DNA of 48,671 nucleotides from a virus. Numbering within the stretch: position 1 is the first letter of the stretch; each line of letters opens with the position of its first letter. The position numbers were made by a program, and so were the translations under genes. The DNA lies in the IMG/VR virus record IMGVR_UViG_3300020454_000020, positions 1-48,671 of that record; one strand, written 5' to 3'. Below, piece after piece: positions 32,551 through 38,209 of the stretch. The notes beneath the pieces are model-generated. The model was not told the DNA's origin and did not search any database. It worked only from the letters and a program-made list of their open reading frames with translations.

Positions 32551-32817
32551 TCAACACTCAAGATGATAGGATTTATACCAATGATACCACAAGTTCACTT
32601 GTTTTTTTGCTTCCATGTGCAATGGATCCATCGCCCACTTCATGACATCTCCCTTAGTTTTCCATTCACTTATTGTTATCTCAATACCTTCAACCACCTC
32701 ACTGTCAATACCAATGAATCCCTCTAGGGTTTTAGCACTAGCATATAGATCATCATTATATTTTTCATACTCAGGAGTCAACTCCTTGATACTACCAACA
32801 AAAACAACTCTATACAT
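32551..32817 (-). CDS. ABM-like (antibiotic biosynthesis monooxygenase) small protein
   Basis: An 88-residue protein with the dimeric alpha/beta-barrel layout: MYRVVFVGSIK, then EGFIGIDSEVVEGIEITISEWKTK and WAMDPLHMEAKK. The SEW(K/R) strand followed by a W..D..H helix block is the ABM/heme-degradation-like pattern. It has 8 bases of overlap with the amidinotransferase-like gene. Enzymatic activity is uncertain; the fold call is moderate. Confidence 0.6.
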   Translation of the reverse strand: MYRVVFVGSIKELTPEYEKYNDDLYASAKTLEGFIGIDSEVVEGIEITISEWKTKGDVMKWAMDPLHMEAKKQVNLWYHWYKSYHLEC

Positions 32818-34102
32818 TAAGTTGTTCTAAACTTGTTTGTTCTCCTTCTCTTGCGAGGTCAGCAGTGATACAATGTAATCCTCCATCCCAAAAGTATCTG
32901 TGTCTGAAGTTGACAATATGTGGTGTGATACCATGCCTCTCAAAAGCATCAAATGCTTTTTTATTAGGACCATTGACAATCACATTCTTTTCATCAATGA
33001 CAAGCATGTTAAGATCAAAGACTGTCTCTTCAACATAAGTTACCCAATCATCTAACCACTCATTCACATAATCATAAAAATCATCACCTGCATTCGGCAC
33101 CCAATATCTTCCATTCATTTTTTCTTTCTTCTTAGTAAATCCTTCCACCTTATCCCAACTCTCACCCTCTAGAGTTACGACTTCCCATCCCGGAAAAGTA
33201 TCTTTATAAGTTTCAGGATCTCTAAGACTCAAAATCAAACCGGGTTTTACAGGGCAGAAACTACCGTCATTATGTCCGGGAACAGATACTGGATGAATGT
33301 TATAGTCAGGAAATAATTTTTTCCATTTAGCTACAAAAGTGCCTTCATTAAGTTTAGTAATGATATTATTGAGACCAAAAAATAAATCCTTACCGACTCT
33401 TGTAATATTTGCAGTAGTAATGTATTGATCATAAACAATCTCATTACCATTATCTTTCATCAATTTTTCTATTGTCTTATAAGGATATGTTTTATCGTTG
33501 TGGACATACTTTGATATCTTTCCAATTGTATTTGTGTGTGCTTGTAATATAAGATTCCTGAGATCATCAATATCGATTCCCTGTAATAAGTTTCTAGAAC
33601 TATTCTTATTAGCAGCACTTTTCAGAAGCATTGCCTGAGTAATTGGTCCTACAGGTCTGCCGGGAAAAGTAAGATCATATATGTACTGTAATATATCTTT
33701 ATGATAATCCGCCATTTGTTTCATCTTTAATGAACTTGTGTTCATTATAGCACCAACTTCATATTCAATATTAATATTTTTTCCAAATTGTTGTCCGGGC
33801 ATATAAAACTTATTACCAATCATGGCAGTATAGTCTCTCGGAGTCATGGGTGGTGATATCATGAAACCTTCTGGTCTCATACAGTCCTCTGGATTGTCTG
33901 CGATATCGGTTCTTATTACTTCTACATCAAATTTTTCGAGAACTGATATAAGTTTCTGAAAGTCCTCTTCAGTTTCTTCAGCAAGACGATGAAAGACTCC
34001 TCTAACTTTTGGGTTCTGAACATAGTTGAAATATTCTGGTGGATAACACCGACCTACAGCACATATTTTAAGAGGGTCCCAATGCTGATGGACATTTAGC
34101 AT
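32810..34102 (-). CDS. amidinotransferase-like (pentein) enzyme
   Basis: A 430-residue protein. VPGHNDGSFCPVKPG supplies the His and Asp of the pentein active site, and a late FWDGGLHCITADL supplies the nucleophilic Cys in the GGxHC motif. N-terminal MRPEGFMISPPMTPRDY resembles glycine and inosamine amidinotransferases (MxPRD). Such enzymes transfer an amidino group from arginine. The substrate in phages is unknown; it may modify a glycan amino sugar or arginine pool. It lies next to the plus-strand exported protein island. Confidence 0.82.
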   Translation of the reverse strand: MLNVHQHWDPLKICAVGRCYPPEYFNYVQNPKVRGVFHRLAEETEEDFQKLISVLEKFDVEVIRTDIADNPEDCMRPEGFMISPPMTPRDYTAMIGNKFYMPGQQFGKNINIEYEVGAIMNTSSLKMKQMADYHKDILQYIYDLTFPGRPVGPITQAMLLKSAANKNSSRNLLQGIDIDDLRNLILQAHTNTIGKISKYVHNDKTYPYKTIEKLMKDNGNEIVYDQYITTANITRVGKDLFFGLNNIITKLNEGTFVAKWKKLFPDYNIHPVSVPGHNDGSFCPVKPGLILSLRDPETYKDTFPGWEVVTLEGESWDKVEGFTKKKEKMNGRYWVPNAGDDFYDYVNEWLDDWVTYVEETVFDLNMLVIDEKNVIVNGPNKKAFDAFERHGITPHIVNFRHRYFWDGGLHCITADLAREGEQTSLEQLNV

Positions 34103-34158
34103 AATAAATTAGTTGTATTAATACTTATATATAGATATAGCAAATAATCGGTAATTTC

Positions 34159-34653
34159 ATGAAGAAATACTTACCACTTATACTATTGGCAGGGTTTGGT
34201 TCTCCTGTATTTGCGGACATTACTCATAGAATGAGTAGTTCTCTACAGTTGACAACAAACGCTGCAGCGACTCAGGTTGAGCGAATTGGATCAACATACT
34301 CGGTCTCTGGATCAGGTGTTTCTACAGACGTAGGTGGTGGTGGATCTGCTGACCTAAACGTTGGTGGTCTAGGAACCCTAACAGATGGAGTAGGACAAGG
34401 TAGTATTGCTACTGCAACTCACACTGCAGGTACAGCGTTCTCATTCTCTCAGTCATTTATTGAAGGTGATGTTATATCTACCACAGCTCCTACTGTTGGT
34501 GCAGTAAGTGCTTATTCTAATCAGGTATCTACTGCTGTGGGTAGTGGAACTGGATCAGGTACAGTCTTAAGTTCTGGTGCTGTAACTGCAGTTGGTGGTG
34601 GATCTGGAACTTCAACTATAGGTCAATTTGTAACTGAATTACAGATCAACTAG
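34159..34653 (+). CDS. exported Gly/Ser/Thr-rich protein 1
   Basis: A 164-residue protein starting MKKYLPLILLAGFGSPVFA then DITHRM, a Sec-type signal peptide with a likely cleavage after VFA. The mature part is rich in Gly, Ser, Thr and Val (VSGSGVSTDVGGGGSADLN, AVGSGTGSGTVL), likely extended beta structure. Plus strand, in a group of three exported proteins. Similar proteins recur in marine T4-like phages; function unknown. Separated from the divergent amidinotransferase-like gene by 56 bases. Confidence 0.75.
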   Translation: MKKYLPLILLAGFGSPVFADITHRMSSSLQLTTNAAATQVERIGSTYSVSGSGVSTDVGGGGSADLNVGGLGTLTDGVGQGSIATATHTAGTAFSFSQSFIEGDVISTTAPTVGAVSAYSNQVSTAVGSGTGSGTVLSSGAVTAVGGGSGTSTIGQFVTELQIN

Positions 34654-34667
34654 GAGTATGGGAACAA

Positions 34668-35111
34668 ATGAGACCTCTTCGTGCGATACTTGTGGGTGCA
34701 ATTGCCCTTGCGAGTGCACCGACTGCACTGAATGCAGTCCCTGTAGTACCTAATTTTACTCAGGGATCGATGACTTCTCACACGGAGACCACTTCTACCG
34801 TGTCGGAGACCATTAATTCAATGGACTATAACACTGGGTATCAATACTCAGTAACGGGTGTTAACGTGCAGCACGATGGTTCTAGTATAACGCCGGATAC
34901 TGGAACTCAATCTATAACAAACAACGGTGTGAATTCAACATGGACAGACTTGAACACTTCACAAAAACCGAATTGGACTCTAACGACTCCCGGAGCAGCA
35001 TTTCAATTCACGGAGACGTACAAAGCCCCCGGTCTTTCGACTCATACTGTAATAACAAGAACCACCACAATCCAAAGCGTAACCGATACAACAAGTATAT
35101 TCAGTCAATAA
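34668..35111 (+). CDS. exported Thr/Ser-rich protein 2
   Basis: A 147-residue protein with a signal peptide (MRPLRAILVGAIALASAPTALNA) followed by VPVVPNFTQGSMTSHTETT and a Thr-rich beta-type body, ending TTIQSVTDTTSIFSQ. A ribosome binding site AGGAG lies 11 bases upstream. Homologues with the same ending are known to me from cyanomyoviruses. It overlaps the long reading frame of the third exported protein by 172 bases. Confidence 0.75.
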   Translation: MRPLRAILVGAIALASAPTALNAVPVVPNFTQGSMTSHTETTSTVSETINSMDYNTGYQYSVTGVNVQHDGSSITPDTGTQSITNNGVNSTWTDLNTSQKPNWTLTTPGAAFQFTETYKAPGLSTHTVITRTTTIQSVTDTTSIFSQ

Positions 35112-35812
35112 TCAAACTAGCAGCACTTAGTGCTATAACAATACCTTATACTGTAACTCCATCCTATGCATCTGATATAGGAGGAGTTTCTGCTACTGCA
35201 AATCCAGTCGCCAACTCTAGTGGGTCAGTGACCAATCAGGCAATACAGGTTTTACAAGGTCCTTATATGACTAACACATACGGTGATGGTATATCTTGTC
35301 AAGTTCCTACCATGAACATTACACCCTATGCCACTCGGACAGGATCATGGATGGATCCTTACGAAAGCGAATGGTTAGATCCTGTGTACAACAACTTAGA
35401 TGCCAATAATGATGATGTACCAGATAATCCCGGTCAAATTTTGTATTATAAACCAGTTCGTACAGGACAAAAAGCAAATCAAAATATAAACATAGGGTTC
35501 TCTGCAACCATGAGTTTCTCATTGAATAGAGATGCACAGAGAAAATGTCAGGAAGCAGCAACATTACACAATGAATACCGTGCACAGTTGACTGCCAATA
35601 AGCGATTAGACTTTGAACTTGCTAGACTTAAGAACTGTGGAGAACTTATGAAGGCAGGAGTTACCTTTCATCCAAAGTCACCTTATGCTAGTATATGTGC
35701 TGATGTTGTAGTAAATAATGTGAACACTATAAAAAACCACAAACATTCTATACCACCTGTAGCAAATGGTAATGCAGATGATCTAAAAGATATTTCTATC
35801 GGAGTAAAGTAA
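34940..35812 (+). CDS. exported protein 3 (start uncertain)
   Basis: The reading frame opens at ATG 34940, but the family-like part begins near 35096 with KYIQSIIKLAALSAITIP and a YTVTPSYA cleavage site followed by SDIGGVSATANPVANSSGS. No ATG, GTG or TTG occurs in frame between the TTG at 34973 and the signal peptide, so the true start is unclear (a non-standard ATT or ATA, or an upstream start). The body has a NKRLDFELARLKNCGELMK block and a Cys pattern as in homologues. Its 3' end overlaps the convergent deformylase gene by 17 bases. Confidence 0.65.
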   Translation: MDRLEHFTKTELDSNDSRSSISIHGDVQSPRSFDSYCNNKNHHNPKRNRYNKYIQSIIKLAALSAITIPYTVTPSYASDIGGVSATANPVANSSGSVTNQAIQVLQGPYMTNTYGDGISCQVPTMNITPYATRTGSWMDPYESEWLDPVYNNLDANNDDVPDNPGQILYYKPVRTGQKANQNINIGFSATMSFSLNRDAQRKCQEAATLHNEYRAQLTANKRLDFELARLKNCGELMKAGVTFHPKSPYASICADVVVNNVNTIKNHKHSIPPVANGNADDLKDISIGVK

Positions 35813-36236
35813 AATTATCCCCTTCTATATGATCATATTCATGTTGGAAAATTCTTGAAGCAAGTCCATCCAACTTTAACTTATGAGTATTTTTATCTAC
35901 ATCCTCATACTTAACAATAATTTTTTTTGGTCTTGATATATTTAAATATAAATCTGGGTATGATAAACACCCTTCTTCCATTTCAACTTCTTCTTTGTAT
36001 GTTTTAATAATTTGAGGATTAAAACAAACTATAATTTCATTAAGTTCTATATCCCTTATCATTACAAATACTCTTTCTGATATACCAATTTGATTAGCAG
36101 ATAAACCCACACCCTTGTGATGAATCATGTTATCAATTAATATCCTTGATAACTCCTGACGATTTAAATTATAACTACACGAATCAATTCGACGATGTAA
36201 TAAAAAATTTTCTGATTCAATTAATTCCTTTATCAT
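35796..36236 (-). CDS. def: peptide deformylase
   Basis: A 146-residue protein with all three deformylase motifs: GVGLSANQIG (42-51), EGCLSYP (88-94) and QHEYDHIEG (131-139). The Cys and the two His bind the metal, the Glu is catalytic. It removes the formyl group from nascent proteins. Phage deformylases in cyanophages are thought to help maturation of photosystem proteins such as D1. It is compact, lacking the C-terminal extension of bacterial enzymes. Confidence 0.93.
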   Translation of the reverse strand: MIKELIESENFLLHRRIDSCSYNLNRQELSRILIDNMIHHKGVGLSANQIGISERVFVMIRDIELNEIIVCFNPQIIKTYKEEVEMEEGCLSYPDLYLNISRPKKIIVKYEDVDKNTHKLKLDGLASRIFQHEYDHIEGDNFTLLR

Positions 36237-36886
36237 TTTTTCTTGATAGGTGATAAACCTTTTTTCTCTCGATATATATTAGTTTCAATCTCACTCTTCG
36301 ATAGTTTAGGAGGTTCTTTACCAAGAATCTTCTGAACTTTTTTTGTTAATTGTTTGATCACAGGTTTAACGACTCTTAATAATAAAGGTGTTGCTGCTGC
36401 AGCACCAGTTGCTATTACAGCAATAGCAGTCGTTGTGCTTACCTCGGCGGGAGAAGGTAGATACTCTTCAACCCAAGTTGAAGTTGGTTCTTCGGTGGAG
36501 ATAACTTCTTTAGATTCAGTTGTTGGTGGTATCTCAGGTATTGGAGGAGTTTCAAGGGTTGGTTGCTCCGTGTTTGCTACTGGTGGAGGTGGTGCCTCCT
36601 GTTCTATTATCAGGTCCTCTGGTGTATATTCAATAGGATTGAATGATGGAGTATCACCATCACAGAAGACTTGAGTTCCTTTTGGATCATCATCCTTTAG
36701 AACTCTATTCTTTTTACTATCTTTATGTGACTCTACACACCCCGGCATATTGATGATAGGAACACCGATGTAGAGAGTATTTGTTATTGATGGTACTCTT
36801 GGGATTGCTACATTAGGAGAGTTTACCCATACGTGTGGCACATATGGGATCGCTATTCCTTGTACTTCAATCTCAGGTACTTCCAT
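36233..36886 (-). CDS. Pro-rich protein with C-terminal membrane segment
   Basis: A 217-residue protein. The N-terminus repeats a short pattern (MEVPEIEVQGIAIPYVPHVW) and has IGVPIINMPGCVESHKD; the middle is rich in Pro, Glu and Thr (VANTEQPTLETPPIPEIPP); the end has STTTAIAVIATGAAAATPLLL and a basic tail (VVKPVIKQLTKKVQKILGK). This layout recurs in cyanophages as a probable membrane or virion protein. A TATAAATA lies only 3 bases upstream of the ATG. Confidence 0.7.
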   Translation of the reverse strand: MEVPEIEVQGIAIPYVPHVWVNSPNVAIPRVPSITNTLYIGVPIINMPGCVESHKDSKKNRVLKDDDPKGTQVFCDGDTPSFNPIEYTPEDLIIEQEAPPPPVANTEQPTLETPPIPEIPPTTESKEVISTEEPTSTWVEEYLPSPAEVSTTTAIAVIATGAAAATPLLLRVVKPVIKQLTKKVQKILGKEPPKLSKSEIETNIYREKKGLSPIKKK

Positions 36887-37220: not shown

Positions 37221-37817
37221 TTAGCAGTTTTTATTCAAATCTTCTGCCATGTTACCACCTATTTCAGCACCTTGATTACCACCAAACATTGCTACCCATC
37301 CTGCTGCTACCCATCCTATGAATGGAATATTAACAAGAGAAGGTGCAGCAGCAGCACCAACACTAGTTCCTACAAGTCTTCCTGTTCCTTTTGCAGCACC
37401 AACTGCTTCGATACAAGCAACAGTTTTAGATAATGCACCGTCTCCACTTTTCTCTACGATAGTGCTTGGATCTTGCCATGATCTCTGATTAGATACAGGT
37501 CCTCCTTGGTTTATCTTACCATCCATGAAGTACTCTTCAGTAACCTTAGTTGTGTTATTCGATAATCCTAAGAATCCACCCTTCTCTTTGATGTCCTTAG
37601 TGATAAATGCTGTCTTGGGATCGTTTGCTTTATATGAAATAACATAACCATCATCTGCTACACTTGCCTTATATGATGTGTAAGGACCTACAGGTATATT
37701 CAAGGTAGGTAACTTAGGTGTCTCTTTTCTGCTTGCAATATATCCAATCATTCCAATGTGCGAGACAGCACAAAGACTACCCACTACACCGATGGATATC
37801 CACTTTATATTATTCAT
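37221..37817 (-). CDS. membrane protein with two hydrophobic regions, 198 aa
   Basis: The N-terminus has a helix (MNNIKWISIGVVGSLCAVSH, GMIGYIAS), a beta-type middle (VGPYTSYKASVADDGYVISY), and a C-terminal Gly/Ala-rich hydrophobic stretch (LVGTSVGAAAAPSLVNIPF, GWVAAGWVAMFGG). Layout suggests an inner-membrane or virion-membrane role; a holin-like role is possible but not supported by a specific motif. It overlaps the upstream gene by 4 bases. Confidence 0.6.
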   Translation of the reverse strand: MNNIKWISIGVVGSLCAVSHIGMIGYIASRKETPKLPTLNIPVGPYTSYKASVADDGYVISYKANDPKTAFITKDIKEKGGFLGLSNNTTKVTEEYFMDGKINQGGPVSNQRSWQDPSTIVEKSGDGALSKTVACIEAVGAAKGTGRLVGTSVGAAAAPSLVNIPFIGWVAAGWVAMFGGNQGAEIGGNMAEDLNKNC

Positions 37818-38209
37818 TTTGTATCAGGAACAATTTTTACAGGACCTGATTCAATTCTAATGGTCTGAGCAGGTGCAGTCTCTGATGCTTTAGCAATAAG
37901 AAACTCCATATCCTTTTTAGATATGTTAGCACTTCCATCAGCACCATTCTTCTTCTTACCTCCTGCGGAGACACCGAAGGTAGCTACGACTCCTGTAAAG
38001 ACCGAAGCTATGAAAGTTGGATCCATGTCTTGTTTAGGAATTCCTAGTGCAGGTGGCAAATCAACATACGCTAATGTTAAAACTCCTCCAGACCAGATCA
38101 AAATTCCTAGTCGCACGAAAGTCGAGAGGATAGCAAGTTGCTCCTCCTTATCCTCAATACCATCTTTGATTTTACCGATGATACCTTTCTTTTCTTCTTT
38201 CTTTTCCAT
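37814..38209 (-). CDS. small membrane protein, 131 aa
   Basis: Begins MEKKEEKKGIIGKIKDGIED, charged, then two hydrophobic helices (STFVRLGILIWSGGVLTLAYV and ASVFTGVVATFGVSA) and a cytosolic tail. The pair of helices with charged ends resembles a small holin, but no class I/II holin signature can be confirmed. It forms a pair with the 198-residue membrane protein. Confidence 0.6.
   Translation of the reverse strand: MEKKEEKKGIIGKIKDGIEDKEEQLAILSTFVRLGILIWSGGVLTLAYVDLPPALGIPKQDMDPTFIASVFTGVVATFGVSAGGKKKNGADGSANISKKDMEFLIAKASETAPAQTIRIESGPVKIVPDTK

Follow-up and report, generated by a model that had tools for sequence, protein, structure and literature searches.

An island of three exported genes

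The window analysed here is the whole 48,671-base IMG/VR virus record IMGVR_UViG_3300020454_000020, and its nearest named relatives at the island locus are the T4-like Prochlorococcus phages P-HM1, P-HM2 and MED4-213. Gene 1 of the island (34159-34653, plus strand; 164 aa, T4-GC 237, phrog_564) and gene 2 (34668-35111, plus strand; 147 aa, T4-GC 236, DUF6322, phrog_650) encode proteins with export signals and predicted cleavage after ..SPVFA and ..ALNA, respectively. The start of gene 3 (34940-35812, plus strand; 290 aa, T4-GC 235, phrog_848) lies out of frame within gene 2. The initial annotation described three consecutive plus-strand genes, and the open reading frames are present at these outer coordinates, but the genes are not simply consecutive, since gene 3 begins in another frame before gene 2 ends. 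The gene 2 product matches DUF6322 (PF19847) with 138 bits against a curated cut-off of 30.6, and the phrog_848 profile covers gene 3 in full length (residues 7-277, E 3e-119). With tblastn, homologs of gene 2 were found in 407 phage records, of gene 3 in 429 and of gene 1 in 210; gene 1 weakly resembles gene 2 and was seen in T4-like phages only.

A strict signal-peptide rule was satisfied by gene 1 (MKKYLPLILLAGFGSPVFA) and gene 2, and as only two of the 65 minus-strand genes of the window pass the same rule, the cluster of signal peptides is not due to chance. No classical N-terminal signal peptide is found in gene 3. Because its ATG lies inside gene 2, the hydrophobic signal segment ending in ..SYA (IIKLAALSAITIPYTVTPSYA; 35105-35170, plus strand, starting at the gene 2 stop codon) is situated at residues ~57-77, behind a basic leader of 56 residues. 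All three signals originally placed at VFA, LNA and SYA are of the Sec type, but only those of genes 1 and 2 are classical. The Thr/Ser/Gly-rich composition ascribed to all three bodies likewise applies to genes 1 and 2 and not to the mature gene 3 product, which contains cysteines and is predicted to form a beta region and a long helix. Its four cysteines (C120, C203, C233 and C253) are invariant, and its start is highly conserved, reading ANPVANSSGSVTNQAIQVLQGP in T4-like members. Gene 3 has one N-terminal hydrophobic segment with a conserved A-x-A-type cleavage site, which suggests cleavage; a cleaved gene 3 product would not be an inner-membrane anchor itself. Predicted export of the products of genes 1-3 to the periplasm or envelope during infection, as already proposed in the initial annotation, is well supported by the Sec signals in ~190 relatives, the invariant cysteines of gene 3 and the lack of transmembrane (TM) segments past the signal.

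Structure prediction gave an all-beta fold with two strands of ~25 residues for gene 2 (pLDDT 76), and for gene 3 an AlphaFold model of low overall confidence (pLDDT 58) with a beta region and a helix at residues 197-238. Together with pTM values of 0.33-0.35, these scores make both models weak, and gene 2 is predicted to be a beta-rich, putative outer-membrane protein at most. No structural homolog was found in the PDB by sequence, and none significant by fold; gene 2 weakly matched a PHROG tail-tube family (E 0.015). Matches to PHROGs, Pfam and NCBIfam carried no lysis annotation, and models of defence, anti-defence and RNA families gave zero matches.

The promoter region of the island (34100-34133, plus strand) has a degenerate TATATATA-like version of a motif that in relatives reads [ACT]TAAATA or ATAAATA, 30-36 nt before the gene 1 ATG. 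A motif resembling late promoters was found at -48..-18 in 36 of 42 distinct upstream regions (mean of 2.2 after shuffling), which suggests that genes 1-3 are expressed late. Just upstream of the island lies a minus-strand gene (32810-34102) for a 430-aa protein that by eye is amidinotransferase-like; its sole profile match is phrog_25854, of unassigned function, and P-HM1 has hli genes in that place.

The overlap between genes 2 and 3

In the window, the dual-coding overlap of genes 2 and 3 (34940-35111, plus strand) comprises 172 nt read in the -1 frame, and every T4-like relative with a complete overlap region has the gene 3 ATG at one of two distances, 172 or 178 nt, ahead of the gene 2 end. 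Counted over sequences of common ancestry, which are not independent trials, the gene 3 frame is open across the overlap in 68 of 68 distinct T4-like pairs, while 1.4 would be expected with random synonymous gene 2 codons. Stops in this frame are absent from the 3,876 overlap codons of the 68 pairs, compared with 365 in 6,191 codons of the gene 2 part that precedes the overlap. Clusters formed at 80% identity still had an open overlap in 15 of 15 cases (0.33 expected), and the other out-of-phase frame was open in none of the 68.

The gene 3 start almost always uses a gene 2 tryptophan codon in an R|TGG setting, in T4-like and T7-like phages, and is formed by ACA|TGG in the window. In the T4-like pairs the codon ahead of the invariant tryptophan always ends in A (ACA, TCA or CAA), which creates the ATG. 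A Shine-Dalgarno-like GGTGTGA (34926-34932, plus strand; GGAGTGA in many relatives) lies over the Gly-Val codons of gene 2 that precede the start, and these codons are mostly GGAGTG or GGTGTG. Pairing with the anti-Shine-Dalgarno sequence reaches -7.9 kcal/mol at the gene 3 start versus -3.0 kcal/mol at control positions. At fourfold sites, third-base variation drops from ~0.57 to ~0.28-0.30 near the start (codons 78-99) and is back at ~0.5-0.57 across the remaining overlap. Relative to stop-free synonymous nulls, the composition of the gene 3 leader is shifted towards basic (mean z +1.5) and hydrophilic (z -1.7) residues.

Judged from these patterns, the gene 2/3 overlap is a genuine and conserved out-of-frame pair. 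The constraint, as read from the codon variation, guards the initiation site, and in the leader an open frame and a basic character are what is mainly preserved; we thus read the overlap as an expression device and not as a second folded domain. Selection on the leader sequence itself was considered for T4-like phages and rejected, because fourfold variation in the overlap is similar to that outside it, start region excepted, which makes a specific leader domain unlikely in these phages. Chance or a gene-caller artefact was also set aside as the origin of the gene 3 start, given the open frame, the constraint on the start and the closed other frame. Programmed frameshifting is contradicted by the conserved start with its Shine-Dalgarno sequence, and no slippery site was seen by eye in the window.

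The overlap varies in length between lineages. The estuarine and freshwater T4-like group around S-H38 has an overlap of 64 nt, with the ATG present in 50 of 54, and a leader of just ~20 residues. Among T7-like cyanopodoviruses, an ATG is found at -208 in 60 of 71 and AAG|TGG provides a GTG there in eight more. In these phages the gene 3 frame stays free of stops as far upstream as an ATG at -364 in 65 of 70 (1.5 expected), and the stretch from -364 to -208 by itself is open in 65 compared with 24 expected. None of them has the other out-of-phase frame open across the overlap. Shine-Dalgarno pairing prefers -364 over -208, and the overlap may extend to 364 nt, nearly all of gene 2. In the T7-like loci (L090-L169) the first 12 nt of gene 2 read ATGAA(A/G/C)AAATGG, with a second ATG, in the gene 3 frame, 8 nt downstream in 69 of 70. 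Since this second ATG is so close, a single ribosome-binding site may be used for starts in both frames. The overlap of P-SSP7 has no ATG, and a GTG on a tryptophan codon lies 112 nt before the end of gene 2. The MPP-C phage P-SCSP1c has an overlap of 56 nt with a different start context. In public records, gene 3 is annotated from a too-late start in S-TIP37, KBS-P-1A, S-H38 and P-SSP7, and P-SSP10 has a gene 2 homolog (L085:3717-4088) that is absent from its GenBank annotation.

Neighbouring genes and distribution

The adjacent partner of the island is a minus-strand gene (36233-36886; T4-GC 234 position, phrog_570) for a Pro-rich protein with a C-terminal TM segment and a basic tail. A peptide deformylase-like gene (by eye; 35796-36236, minus strand), which is not there in P-HM1, lies between gene 3 and the Pro-rich gene; running on the opposite strand, it shares its last 17 nt with the end of gene 3. 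Further on is a DUF6450 protein (37814-38209, minus strand; 131 aa, phrog_2714/721) with two TM segments and holin-like size and topology. It is homologous to a protein of 71-101 aa encoded directly upstream of genes 2-3 in T7-like cyanophages, and Pfam and PHROG matches tie the DUF6450 proteins of both phage types together. The Pro-rich proteins of the two types belong to separate PHROG families (570 and 9426); what links them is solely their design and position. The minus-strand gene at 37221-37817 encodes a phrog_605 protein with an N-terminal TM segment and a hydrophobic Gly/Ala-rich C-terminal part; it adjoins DUF6450 in T4-like relatives and is possibly a further membrane part of the module.

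The gene order of T7-like phages runs from the tail fibres through the Pro-rich C-terminal-TM protein, DUF6450, gene 2 and gene 3 to the small terminase gene, in some with small genes between, and in T4-like phages the module is split across two strands. At IMG/VR loci, DUF6450 was present in 51 of 85 T4-like (where many contigs are too short to reach it), 73 of 83 T7-like and 67 of 81 S-H38-like cases, and the Pro-rich protein in 80 of 85, 60 of 83 and 2 of 81, respectively. Genes 042-045 of P-SSP7 are a T7-like version of the module, and GenBank describes one TM segment in 042, two in 043 and a possible signal peptide in 044; the annotated start of 045 lies after gene 2, and the overlap is not in the GenBank description. 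A protein of ~53 aa (..RPVLMSFLNSDKVKRLIVDMLRKLAEQSDNTVDDQAVNFI..) is repeatedly encoded close to the module in T7-like cyanophages (L261:2914-3075, L086:4931-5092 and L085:4763-4927) and occurs as gp48 in Syn5 (L271:666-836), a phage without gene 3.

Genes 2-3 were found only in phages of Synechococcus and Prochlorococcus and in IMG/VR relatives. A host origin was rejected, as a scan of genome contigs gave only 10 loci, from one isolate assembly and otherwise from single-cell or MAG contigs. Gene 2 is present at every one of these loci, most of them also carry further genes of the cassette, and we read them as phage sequence. The module is not universal among cyanophages, since gene 3 and DUF6450 were not found in S-PM2 and Syn5, and genes 2 and 3 were undetectable in S-CREM2. 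A weak DUF6450 match in S-CREM2, gp131 (L270:580-774; E 1e-3), lies between tail and adaptor genes and is absent from the virion proteome. The same genes as in the island have previously been reported by Sullivan et al. (2010; PMC3037559), in which the hypothetical T4-GC 218, 219, 234, 235 and 237 formed a conserved and possibly mobile functional cluster in all but S-PM2 of 16 genomes. Their role was left unassigned there, and the export signals, the overlap and the T7-like connection, all absent from the main text of that study, are added by the present analysis.

A candidate late module for envelope disruption

Our leading interpretation, held tentatively and at somewhat less than an even chance, is that genes 1-3 together with DUF6450 and the Pro-rich protein form a late envelope-disruption or lysis module that does the job of spanins without a lipoprotein. 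DUF6450 would act as the holin, and the secreted products of genes 1-3 would form an assembly, periplasmic or on the outer membrane, that disrupts this membrane at the end of infection, perhaps via the membrane-anchored Pro-rich protein. The overlap could couple translation of gene 3 to that of gene 2, and the basic leader of gene 3 might hold the N-terminus in the cytoplasm until Sec engages the signal segment. This reading is favoured because the late module occurs in two phage types whose main shared feature is the host, because DUF6450 has a holin-like shape, because the module adjoins the small terminase gene in T7-like phages, and because cyanophages bearing it are listed as spanin-less in PMC6139136. 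In that survey of 677 phages, no spanins were found in 20 phages of Prochlorococcus and Synechococcus, and it was suggested that these hosts might not need them. The list includes P-HM1, P-HM2, P-SSM2, P-SSM4, Syn9 and P-SSP7, all of which bear the module, as well as S-PM2, P60 and Syn5. The lysis claim is limited by S-PM2 and Syn5, which have neither gene 3 nor DUF6450 and must therefore use something else, and by S-CREM2, which lacks genes 2-3. Also speaking against it are the missing lipobox, the cleavage site of gene 3, the two-strand layout in T4-like phages, and searches that gave neither a lysis annotation nor a significant fold match.

DUF6450 proteins (71-131 aa) resemble two-TM (class II-type) holins in being short, with two TM domains and a charged C-terminus; the 101- and 131-aa forms have two hydrophobic windows and basic ends, and the 71-aa form has one clear window. 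We infer from these features that DUF6450 is a candidate holin. Genes 2 and 3 show the gene arrangement of spanins (embedded, overlapped or adjacent, usually in another frame), and the mature gene 3 product has the periplasmic cysteines, with putative intermolecular disulfides. Lambda Rz/Rz1 is the embedded spanin type and P2 the overlapped type, and like the latter the pair is made up of overlapping genes, read in different frames, for two exported proteins of the envelope. The predicted helical periplasmic part with cysteines in gene 3 and the small two-TM protein nearby in the late region are further similarities to two-component spanins. In contrast to these, gene 2 is mostly beta-rich, the overlap encodes a 56-residue leader ahead of the signal, the gene 3 signal is apparently cleavable and the pair has no lipobox (none in 193 gene 2 sequences and one match in 186 gene 3 sequences). 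Annotated spanin families gave zero sequence matches. As the lipoprotein signal that defines spanins was looked for and is missing, genes 2 and 3 are not filed as spanins, but by analogy the pair may work like one. In T7, holin 17.5 lies beside small terminase gene 18 and spanins 18.5/18.7 follow gene 18. The module of T7-like cyanophages shares this neighbourhood next to the small terminase gene; however, no sequence similarity to the T7 genes was found, and the cyanophage pair comes before the terminase gene and not after it. The broader proposal that two unrelated virion types share a lipoprotein-free disruption of the outer membrane, with a secreted beta-rich protein and its out-of-frame Cys partner, a DUF6450 holin and a Pro-rich inner-membrane anchor, is more doubtful.

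Envelope remodelling or superinfection exclusion, by which the proteins would block re-adsorption or DNA entry of later phages, seems rather unlikely. Sec signals, mature parts without TM segments and the confinement of the genes to Synechococcus and Prochlorococcus phages and IMG/VR relatives would suit it, but exclusion genes are usually early, which does not fit the late-promoter motif, and the fixed linkage to a holin-like two-TM protein in two phage types and zero matches to defence or exclusion models argue against it. The initial annotation had suggested that the proteins might alter adsorption or act alongside the glycan genes. We do not retain this suggestion, as the gene pair is kept in ~45-kb T7-like cyanophages, adjoins DUF6450 and the Pro-rich membrane protein, and has the late motif.

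It is also quite unlikely that the exported products form a complex with some other late function, for instance as a scaffold in the periplasm or outer membrane or in nutrient acquisition, with the overlap serving compact expression only. The late motif and the constant DUF6450 neighbour point to lysis instead, although the function is unassigned in every library searched, the gene 3 leader sequence is weakly constrained and the cassette has been termed mobile (PMC3037559).

An addition to virions via the periplasm at or after lysis, for example as tail or fibre decorations, we consider improbable. To our knowledge, tailed-phage virions assemble in the cytoplasm and use no Sec signals, and S-PM2, Syn5 and S-CREM2 make virions without gene 3, even if the late-promoter motif, the position of the T7-like copies near tail-fibre genes and the top, insignificant gene 2 fold match to a phage upper-tail protein (E 6e-3) would agree with such a role.

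Finally, a misplaced gene 3 start, with an accidentally open overlap and either a true start at a non-AUG codon close to the signal peptide or a frameshift from gene 2, would yield a classical signal peptide if beside the gene 2 stop and accord with the missing ATG in P-SSP7, but is highly improbable given an overlap always open against 1.4 of 68 expected, the other out-of-phase frame never open there in T4- or T7-like phages, the strong synonymous constraint on the ATG and Shine-Dalgarno region and the P-SSP7 GTG in the same R|TGG setting.

The overlap is a clear case of long-term dual coding across two phage types, with starts recruited from tryptophan codons, and it has as a consequence late gene 3 starts and an unannotated gene 2 in several public records. 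Marine cyanophages kill a large share of the main photosynthesisers of the ocean, and no cyanophage protein is known for opening the outer membrane. The lysis reading would give this step concrete candidates in a conserved, exported and overlapping pair that is predicted to be late and lies beside a holin-like protein.
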